Of a stretch of 51,452 nt of DNA, positions 9,880 to 44,400 are shown in pieces (position 1 is the first letter of the stretch; the number at the start of each line of letters is the position of its first letter). This stretch comes from Gammaproteobacteria bacterium (lineage in GTDB: Bacteria; Pseudomonadota; Gammaproteobacteria; Steroidobacterales; Foliamicaceae). Location of the stretch: positions 1 to 51,452 of the forward strand of contig JAPPHC010000020.1 of the NCBI GenBank assembly GCA_028821145.1, in the 5' to 3' direction. The notes beneath the pieces are model-generated. The model searched no databases. It saw only the letters and a list, made by a program, of their open reading frames with translations, and was not told the DNA's origin. The translations under genes and the position numbers were made by a program.

Positions 9880-11213
9880 TGAGGGAATGGGTGAATCGGC
9901 TGGCGGAGGCCGGCGATCTGCTGACCGTGGACAGGGCGGTCGATCCGCGTTTCGAACTGGCTGCGGTGACCAAGCGCGCCCAGCAGGCGGGCAATCGCCC
10001 GATCCTGTTCCGAAACGTCAAGGGGACGCGGCTTGAAGTCGTGACCAACCTGTTTGCCGATGCCCGGCGCCTGCGAAGCCTGGTGCCCGTGAAAGAGGGG
10101 CCATTCGCCGCCGCCTACGCAAGCATGCTGGACGCGGCGGAGTCCCGGGTCGCAGCGCCGACACGCGAGGCCCCGGCGCCCGGAGACCTTCAACAGGGGC
10201 AGCTTTCCGATCTGCCGCTGATCACCTACCACGAGCGCGACGCCGGGCCGTATTTCACGGCGGCAATCGTGCTGGCCCTCGACCCCGATACCGGCGTGCC
10301 CAACCTGTCGTTTCACCGGGCGATGTATGCCGGTCCGCGGGAACTGCGCCTGCGGCTGGGCGACAGCCACGATCTCACCGACTATCAGCGCCGCGCCGAG
10401 GAGGCCGGACAGGCGCTGCCCGTTGCGCTGCTGATCGGCGTGCCGCCGGCCGTGTTCATGGCCGCCGGCACTCATCTTCCTGCCGGAGTCGACGAGTACG
10501 CGCTGGCCGCGGAACTGGCGGGCAAGCGCGTGGACGTATATTCCGGCGCGCACAGCGGCCTCCCGGTTCCCGCCGCCACCGAAGTCGTCATCGAGGGCCG
10601 GATACTGCCGGCGGAAAGGCGCCCCGAGGGACCATTCGGCGAGGTGCTCGGTTACTACGTGCCCGAGGCCCCCAACCACGTCATGGATGTCGAGCGCGTG
10701 ACCTGGCGGCGCGACGCGATGTTCCACAGCCTGCTGTGCGGATCGCGCGAGGACCTCGCCCCGCTGGAAGCGATCAACGCCGCGCGCGTGTATCGCGACT
10801 TGAGCCGGCGTTTGCCCGGAATCGTCGACGTCTCCTGCGCGCCGGCGTTCATGAACACCACCGTGCAGATCCGCCCGCAATACAGCGAACACGCGCGGGA
10901 CGTCATGGAAGTCGTCTTCGACAGCCACGCCGACTACAACCAGTTGTGCTGCGTGGTGGAGGAGGACGTGGACCTGAGCGACATGAACGCCGTGATGCAC
11001 GCCTTCATTACCCGCGGCAGGGTGGATGCGCGGACCCTGGTTATCAGCGACCGCGCCGGATTCTATCGTGACACGCAAAGCGATTTCGTCGGCAGGGTAG
11101 GGCTGGACGCCACCCGTCCCTTCGGCCGGGAAGACGAATTCGTCGTAAAGGAAGTGCCGGGGCTGGACGCCGTGCGGCTGGAGGACTACCTGACCCGCGG
11201 CAAAAGGATGTAG
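9879..11213 (+). CDS. UbiD-family (prenylated-FMN) decarboxylase
   Basis: This 444-residue protein of the UbiD superfamily performs reversible decarboxylation of aromatic or alpha,beta-unsaturated acids with prenyl-FMN. The conserved block PEGPFGEVLGYY supplies two acidic residues five apart (E250, E255), corresponding to the catalytic Glu pair of Fdc/UbiD. The upstream strand EVVIEGRI and the later VVFDSHADYNQLCCVVEEDVD segment also fit. The start is the ATG overlapping the MFS stop; earlier in-frame sequence is inside the MFS gene. The 3' end overlaps the convergent ThDP-enzyme gene by 28 nt. At 444 residues it is somewhat shorter than the usual 480-500. Prenyl-FMN supply (UbiX) is not in the window. 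Confidence 0.88.
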   Translation: MREWVNRLAEAGDLLTVDRAVDPRFELAAVTKRAQQAGNRPILFRNVKGTRLEVVTNLFADARRLRSLVPVKEGPFAAAYASMLDAAESRVAAPTREAPAPGDLQQGQLSDLPLITYHERDAGPYFTAAIVLALDPDTGVPNLSFHRAMYAGPRELRLRLGDSHDLTDYQRRAEEAGQALPVALLIGVPPAVFMAAGTHLPAGVDEYALAAELAGKRVDVYSGAHSGLPVPAATEVVIEGRILPAERRPEGPFGEVLGYYVPEAPNHVMDVERVTWRRDAMFHSLLCGSREDLAPLEAINAARVYRDLSRRLPGIVDVSCAPAFMNTTVQIRPQYSEHARDVMEVVFDSHADYNQLCCVVEEDVDLSDMNAVMHAFITRGRVDARTLVISDRAGFYRDTQSDFVGRVGLDATRPFGREDEFVVKEVPGLDAVRLEDYLTRGKRM

Positions 11214-34836: not shown

Positions 34837-34851
34837 CCCGCGCCGGCTAAA

Positions 34852-34953
34852 GCCCGCTCTTCGGCCCCCTCCCTCGTGGGAGCGTTGGAGCAGGGACAGC
34901 GAGAATCGAGCCAGGATGGCGTCTCCAACGAGGGAGGGGGCCGAATAGGGGGC
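34852..34953. repeat. Palindrome-armed repeat, copy 1
   Basis: The 26-nt left arm (34852-34877) and right arm (34928-34953) are complementary at 24 of 26 positions. The 50-nt middle (34878-34927) contains GAGCGTTGGAGCAG and GAGAATCGAGCCAGGATGG. The middle is nearly identical to the copy at 43598-43648, with one single-base indel in the interior. The arms differ between copies but stay self-complementary within each. It lies between the convergent CpeT-like and membrane-protein genes, where the arms would form a long hairpin in RNA or DNA. Confidence 0.85.
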
Positions 34954-34962
34954 GAGGGAGCC

Positions 34963-43572: not shown

Positions 43573-43673
43573 GCCCTGTGTTTGGCCCACCTCCTCGCCG
43601 GAGCGTTGGAGCAGGACAGCGAGAATCGAGCCAGGATGGCGTCTCCGTCGAGGAGGTGGGCCAAACACAGGGC
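43573..43673. repeat. Palindrome-armed repeat, copy 2
   Basis: The 25-nt arms (43573-43597 and 43649-43673) are perfectly complementary. The 51-nt middle (43598-43648) shares GAGCGTTGGAGCAG and GAGAATCGAGCCAGGATGG with copy 1. A conserved GGCGAGG closes the right arm in both. The arms differ from copy 1 but keep pairing, a covariation pattern. It lies just after the lipoprotein stop and 44 nt before phoB, where it could act as terminator, attenuator or mobile-element remnant. Confidence 0.85.
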
Positions 43674-43716
43674 GAGGAAGCATAGGTGCCGGGGAATGGC
43701 ATAATTTGAAGGCGAA

Positions 43717-44400
43717 ATGCGGCGCGATATTCTGGTAGTCGAGGACGAGGGCGCGATTCGCGGAATGCTCGCCTTCAACCTGCGCCGCGCCGACTTCGAC
43801 GTGCGCGAAGCGGAGGACGCCGGCGCCGCCCGCAAGGCCATCGCCGAACGCCTTCCCGACCTGGCCATCATCGACTGGATGCTGCCTGACGGCAGCGGCC
43901 TGGAACTGACGCGCTGGATCAAGCGCACGCCCGAGACCCGCGACGTGGCCATCATCATGGTCACCGCCCGCTCCCAGGAGGAGGACAAGATTTCGGGACT
44001 GAGCAGCGGCGCCGACGACTACGTCACCAAACCGTTCTCCAGCCGCGAACTGCTGGCCCGCATAAACGCGGTGCTGCGCCGCTCCCAGAGCGCCCAGGAA
44101 GACCCGATCACGCGCGGGCGGCTGACACTGAACCCGGTCAGCCATCGCGTGCACACCGACCGGGGGCCCGTCGTCCTGGGACCGACCGAATTCCGCCTGC
44201 TGCGCCTGTTCATGGAACGCCCCGAGCGCGTATTCAGCCGCTCCCAGTTGCTGGATCGGGTATGGGGGCCGGCGGTTTTCGTCGAGGACCGCACCGTGGA
44301 TGTGCATATCCGGCGTCTCAGAAAGGCGCTGGAAGCGCATGAGGTGGACCGCTACATCCAGACCGTGCGAGGCGCCGGCTACCGTTTCTCGCTCCAGTAG
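43717..44400 (+). CDS. phoB: Phosphate-regulon response regulator
   Basis: This 227-residue OmpR-family activator has a receiver domain with the acidic pocket VVEDE (9-11), phospho-acceptor Asp53 (IIDWMLP), Thr83 and Lys105 (TKPFS). The winged-helix domain contains GPTEFRLLRLFME, RVFSRSQLLDRVWG, VEDRTVDVHIRRLRKAL and VRGAGYRFS, all strongly PhoB-like. CATAAT at 43700-43705 is a possible -10. It is followed 9 nt later by the kinase gene. It is the likely binder of the 37885 repeat array. Confidence 0.93.
   Translation: MRRDILVVEDEGAIRGMLAFNLRRADFDVREAEDAGAARKAIAERLPDLAIIDWMLPDGSGLELTRWIKRTPETRDVAIIMVTARSQEEDKISGLSSGADDYVTKPFSSRELLARINAVLRRSQSAQEDPITRGRLTLNPVSHRVHTDRGPVVLGPTEFRLLRLFMERPERVFSRSQLLDRVWGPAVFVEDRTVDVHIRRLRKALEAHEVDRYIQTVRGAGYRFSLQ

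Follow-up and report, generated by a model that had tools for sequence, protein, structure and literature searches.

Functional RNAs are usually proven by covariation between the two sides of a stem. The stretch of gammaproteobacterial DNA analysed here (51,452 nt, “the window”) holds two copies of a palindromic element whose arms differ between the copies and yet pair within each of them. A sequence-only reading of the window argued that the base pairing itself must be maintained, and proposed two possible causes: selection on a hairpin, or a copying mechanism in which one arm serves to restore its partner. Here, we ask which of these causes keeps the arms paired. With tens of copies per genome, and with both orthologous and empty sites, pair changes can be counted directly. 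The element may separate the two causes of covariation because a test of G-U tolerance and a test of coupled change can be run on the same sequences. The element is of interest mainly because changes in its paired arms can be followed so clearly, and because it is a genome-dispersed, CsrA-type candidate module.

Two copies in the window

The two copies lie at positions 34852-34953 (copy 1) and 43573-43673 (copy 2), where they had been read from the sequence, and all of their parts are given here on the + strand. Copy 1 begins with a 31-nt 5′ arm that includes GAG (34852-34882) and ends with a 31-nt 3′ arm that includes CTC (34923-34953); over the full length of the stem, 28/31 positions form Watson-Crick pairs. 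The core between the stem halves (34883-34922) fits the family core and contains two small hairpins. Hairpin 1, GC-AGGGACA-GC (34890-34900), has the weakened form of a newer subfamily that lacks the third stem pair. Hairpin 2, GCC-AGGAT-GGC (34910-34920), has pairs that are kept in all A2 sequences having letters there. The element is flanked by conserved tails, GCGCCGGCTAAA on the 5′ side (34840-34851) and GAGGGAGC on the 3′ side (34954-34961), both of which follow the flank consensus of 190 copies. The 5′ tail is missing from the empty orthologous site in genome G002.

Copy 2 has the same layout, with a 5′ arm (43573-43603, including GAG) and a 3′ arm (43643-43673, including CTC) of 31 nt each that are paired at 30/31 positions. 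Its core (43604-43642) is one base shorter and contains hairpin 1, GC-AGGACA-GC (43611-43620), and hairpin 2, GCC-AGGAT-GGC (43630-43640). The conserved 3′ tail GAGGAAGC follows at 43674-43681. The near-identity of the two cores, broken by one single-base indel, is thus borne out (AGGGACAG in copy 1, AGGACAG in copy 2), and the GGAG/CTCC pairing does extend the stem, as had been seen. The exact core did not arise by chance in any of 100 shuffles of the window. A covariance model of the family built in this analysis (R1) scores copy 1 at 91.6 bits (34856-34949) and copy 2 at 93.7 bits (43577-43669), and a scan of the whole window with this model found no third copy. Copy 1 lies between convergent genes, 15 bp after the end of the upstream gene. 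Copy 2 lies 7 bp past one gene and 43 bp ahead of a PhoB-like gene (43717-44400) that runs in the same direction.

A dispersed family

The window copies belong to a dispersed family, which goes beyond what the sequence-only reading saw. The source genome (a 2.2 Mb assembly, 66% complete) has about 20 copies, and the element occurs in all of eight further genomes of the genus, with up to 48 exact core matches each. Together, the nine genomes of this one gammaproteobacterial genus, which is probably sponge-associated judging from isolate names, yielded ~190 distinct copies; the 190 elements analysed come from extracted genome regions, which cover G003, G004, and G008 in part. Contig ends fall inside the element in several places (e.g., G000:C32:1-55, G000:C19:1-47, and G002:C6, C13, and C23). 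Because assemblies break within the element, copy numbers are probably underestimated.

The element is non-coding and about 100-125 bp long, with a stem of 28-31 bp, counted outward from the inner GAG/CTC, in 172/190 copies. Its parts are arranged in the order tail GCGCCRRCTAAA, 5′ arm, GAGCGTTGRAGC, hairpin 1, linker GCGGAACCGAGCC or GCGAGAATCGAGCC, hairpin 2, CGYCTC, 3′ arm, and tail GAGGAAGC. The 5′ arm is pyrimidine-rich and otherwise free in sequence. Older copies have the hairpins GCC-AGGGAU-GGC and GCC-AGGAU-GGC. The window copies represent an amplified subfamily in which many copies have near-identical arms and in which hairpin 1 is weakened, with only two clear pairs. GGA is retained in hairpin 1 in 187/189 copies and in hairpin 2 in 171/189; in 13 copies, hairpin 2 has been exchanged for a hairpin with no GGA loop.

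Several copies depart from this layout. A second hairpin module without a GGA loop, CAGTGAGCGCCGATGCCCCGGCGCGAACAGCG, takes the place of hairpin 2 (e.g., in L147, L155, L192, and L239) and, in one copy (L244), that of hairpin 1. The core is enlarged to ~165-190 nt and contains several hairpins in L168 and L230, which lie on the minus strand (reverse-complement positions ~9900-10140); this core is common to G005 and G007, at unrelated sites and with its own paired arms at each. There are also six element pairs spaced 25-41 bp apart (L147, L155, L092, L202, L187, and L310), all arranged head-to-head (-+) in a manner reminiscent of BIMEs.

Outside the genus, BLAST found the element in 0/49 genomes of the same order. 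In a set of 84,980 species representatives, MAGs of Gammaproteobacteria were the only ones to match the genus-specific core pattern. A class-wide BLAST search with the core gave two outside matches, which have no hairpin architecture and are probably coding; we regard them as chance. An R1 search of 369 gammaproteobacterial genomes found the element in 11 further genera, and a deeper R1 search found it in 12/12 outside genomes, the four with most matches having 25, 24, 18, and 16. The same architecture is present in at least 12 other genera.

Covariation of the arms

The core is conserved, and the arms are free in sequence yet complementary. Watson-Crick pairing reaches 97.5% at stem positions 7-27; over positions 4-30, 94% of positions pair between a copy's own arms versus 50% when arms are swapped between copies. 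Among 33 diverse copies from the genus, 24/27 stem pairs have changed on both sides, and 318 alignment cells are double-changed versus 81 +/- 7.5 after shuffling. The signal is lost when the partner is shifted by one column. Across other genera (25 matches), both-sided changes occur at 27/27 stem pairs and at 2/3 pairs of hairpin 1, in an alignment that was fitted to the model and so leans toward structure. These double changes uphold the view that the pairing itself is maintained.

The sequence-only reading would have been contradicted by further copies with unpaired arms. In the extracted regions, 132/136 exact matches to the core 12-mer have paired arms. Of the remaining four, one lies at a contig edge and one is a chance match within a gene; in the other two copies, the core is enlarged (19/27 paired) or one arm has a 1-nt indel.

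Coupled changes within the genus

Orthologous sites, identified by their flanking DNA, show how the pairs change. In 68 filled orthologous pairs, with flanks about 92.6% identical, there are 307 changes in the 5′ arm and 339 in the 3′ arm, of which 250 are compensated (136 transitions, 114 transversions). Where a pair differs at only one or two positions, as the closest pairs do, 22 changes are compensated versus nine single changes. The nine comprise two G-U, two A-C, and five transversion mismatches, with no preference for G-U. Both sides of many pairs thus seem to have changed in a single step, which is what copying from a DNA template predicts. If mutation and selection had acted one after the other, most changes at such a distance should be single, and we therefore infer copying between the arms; in the genus, the coupled changes and the many transversions point to arm-templated DNA copying. 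These counts come from orthologous pairs that share branches and are not independent, and ectopic conversion and recombination between lineages also inflate the number of coupled changes.

Template switching within the palindrome and conversion from another copy would both give coupled changes. The perfecting of imperfect inverted repeats by template switching is a known process (PMC7202029, PMC8794818), and there is precedent for the templated maintenance of hairpins (PMC8794818). One copy, L226 (G007), is a hybrid when compared with L014 (G000) and L141 (G006): its 5′ arm resembles that of one lineage and its 3′ arm that of another, with three clustered mismatches. It is possibly a half-converted or recombinant state.

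A strand signal in other genera

A second signal distinguishes the two strands of the stem. In 39 arms from other genera, the GGA strand has 46 G-U versus 4 A-C pairs (p = 4e-10), with equal penalty for both in stem detection, in copies chosen by a covariance model that mildly favours G-U over A-C. Within the genus, the corresponding numbers are 36 and 19 (p = 0.03), and this excess is independent of orientation relative to neighbouring genes. The simplest reading of the G-U excess is that the GGA strand is selected as folded RNA; a strand-specific C-to-T bias in exposed single strands could mimic it. The asymmetry in other genera weakens a purely DNA-level cause, which had been our first reading. 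Each of the two causes proposed from the window is thereby backed, arm rebuilding by the coupled changes within the genus and hairpin selection by the one-strand tolerance of G-U in other genera.

Genomic position, gain, and loss

All 190 copies fall outside called genes, with genes called simply by codon usage. The gaps that hold copies are convergent in 76 cases, tandem in 79, and divergent in 28, versus 187, 749, and 230 background gaps. Convergent gaps thus hold 76/183 copies where about 29 would be expected (p = 6e-20), so that mapping the copies to gene 3′ ends, as the sequence-only reading suggested, reveals a strong preference for convergent ends. In tandem gaps, 35 copies are sense and 44 antisense, with no sense bias. 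The lack of a preferred sense orientation argues against a plain 3′-UTR role; the element might instead act as a trans-acting RNA or a sponge, or pass through an RNA stage when it moves.

Copies are gained, lost, and replaced in short intergenic gaps, mostly at gene 3′ ends. The site of copy 1 is empty in G002 (TAG-TTCGTCAACC-GGTTTTTGC) and is filled in G007 by an element with different arms. The site of copy 2 is filled in G002, G005, G006, and G007, so the gap upstream of the PhoB-like regulator holds an element in five species; the G005 copy (L172) is of another subtype. In one orthologous pair (L239 and L179), the arms are identical and the hairpin-2 module is swapped. One site has a possible 14-bp target-site duplication, and others have none. 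We also considered a pre-existing hairpin as the insertion target and rejected it, as empty sites have no matching hairpin.

A candidate CsrA module

CsrA recognises the consensus RUACARGGAUGU, with an optimum for bridging by the dimer at >18 nt (PMC7652899). The GGA hairpin loops fit this consensus and the 10-63 nt pairing range. Within the genus, CA(N)GGA loops occur twice in 160/190 copies, mostly 19-21 nt apart and thus close to the bridging optimum; in other genera, C-N-N-GGA-Y-G loops occur twice in 32/37 copies, with a spacing of 22-24 nt. All nine genomes of the genus encode csrA. Judged from these motifs, CsrA binding by the element RNA is a consistent hypothesis rather than a demonstration.

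The explanation that we favour, with a confidence balanced evenly between its being right and wrong, is that the element is a TwoAYGGAY-type dispersed repeat whose arms are kept paired by DNA copying together with RNA selection, and that it is a candidate CsrA module. A change in one arm would be copied to the other by template switching or conversion, such that the pair changes in one step. The GGA strand would additionally be selected as folded RNA, with G-U tolerated and A-C not. The rigid stem of the RNA would carry two sites of CsrA/RsmA type, spaced such that a dimer can bridge them, and each transcribed copy would therefore bind one CsrA dimer. The predicted role is that of a sponge or of a site at transcript ends. 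Several observations count against this explanation: a 3′-UTR role predicts sense copies, yet antisense copies are at least as frequent and the G-U excess is independent of orientation, and there are the 13 copies without a GGA loop in hairpin 2 together with the weak hairpin 1 of the amplified subfamily. More speculatively, and with decidedly low confidence, such elements may be mobile CsrA-binding modules, in which each insertion adds a two-site clamp and builds up a distributed sponge or a spreading regulon, while arm-to-arm copying rewrites the stem and keeps it paired.

Competing explanations

Several features of the element would also be expected of a selfish, REP/MITE-like DNA palindrome with no host function, moved as a hairpin by a transposase and perfected by template switching. 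It is multi-copy and exclusively intergenic, is gained and lost at orthologous sites, is neutral in orientation with occasional inverted pairs, and has many transversions among its compensated changes. We consider this explanation unlikely, if still worth serious attention. The REP-associated Y1 (RAYT) transposase (PF01797) was found in 0/9 genomes, with 5/14 controls positive, and we rejected a REP/RAYT identity for want of this transposase. Target-site duplications are inconsistent, and the marked excess of G-U over A-C outside the genus and the two CsrA-consensus loops at near-constant spacing also speak against selfish spread. A simpler origin, in which one hairpin was recently duplicated and its arms then drifted at random, has virtually nothing left to recommend it: while the amplified subfamily does include many copies with near-identical arms, arms swapped between copies pair at only 50%, and fully different arms still pair. 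Covariation already refutes it, and the ~20 copies in the source genome dispose of the concern that only two copies might exist.

The third alternative is a transcript-end element, a hairpin that either stops transcripts arriving from each side or shields the 3′ ends of mRNAs. Such a role would account for the accumulation between convergent genes, and the fold is very stable. At one orthologous site (pair 104), a copy in G002 (L207) corresponds to a classical intrinsic terminator in G006 (L133). Against this, a T-run follows the hairpin on the GGA strand in only 1/190 copies (18/190 on the other strand), copies and intrinsic terminators are not mutually exclusive, with terminators in general neither replaced nor avoided, and the conserved GGA loops are left unexplained. 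We rejected identity with an intrinsic terminator on the first two of these grounds, and we regard the broader transcript-end role as improbable.

Relation to known systems

Literature searches by loop sequences and for any comparable intergenic repeat with a name returned nothing relevant. Like REP/BIME sequences, the element is a dispersed intergenic palindrome that at times forms inverted pairs; it differs in its free arms, its two inner hairpins, and the absence of a detected Y1 transposase. REP stems keep their sequence. The CsrA sponge RNAs of the CsrB/CsrC/RsmZ type share with it repeated CsrA-type GGA loops, but each of them is one sRNA gene whose product has many loops, whereas this is a short two-loop element with tens of intergenic copies; no Rfam family of this type matched at gathering score. 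Quasipalindrome correction by template switching also perfects imperfect inverted repeats, whereas here the process is deduced from natural dispersed copies and not from the event itself.

The closest named family is Rfam TwoAYGGAY (RF01731), for which CsrA binding has previously been predicted (PMC4333381). An Rfam scan of the window at gathering thresholds found only tRNA and no TwoAYGGAY, and RF01731 has no match in the source genome; low-threshold matches to microRNA families were discarded as long-stem artefacts. The best copies in the genus score 28.2 and 27.4 bits, below the cut-off of 43 bits. RF01731 passes its cut-off in 13/321 genomes, with 8/8 scored candidates in several, and TwoAYGGAY also looks multi-copy. 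One element from another genus (L345) scores 44.6 bits with RF01731, above the cut-off, and 53.1 bits with R1. Because copies in the genus fail RF01731, and L345 alone both passes it and matches R1, we describe the element as TwoAYGGAY-like without assigning it to that family. It differs in its loops, which are AGGAU or AGGGAC(A) in the window rather than AYGGAY (exact AUGGAU loops occur in some older copies), in its hairpins of only 2-3 bp, in its near-perfect stem of 28-31 bp, and in being a dispersed repeat. The likeness lies in two neighbouring GGA-loop hairpins within a poorly conserved external stem, in Gammaproteobacteria, and this stem surrounds both hairpins here as well, with 24/27 (genus) and 27/27 (other genera) covarying pairs. 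In several genera, a TwoAYGGAY-like RNA candidate is thus a dispersed repeat with many copies, a finding relevant to the ways in which CsrA-type sites could spread.
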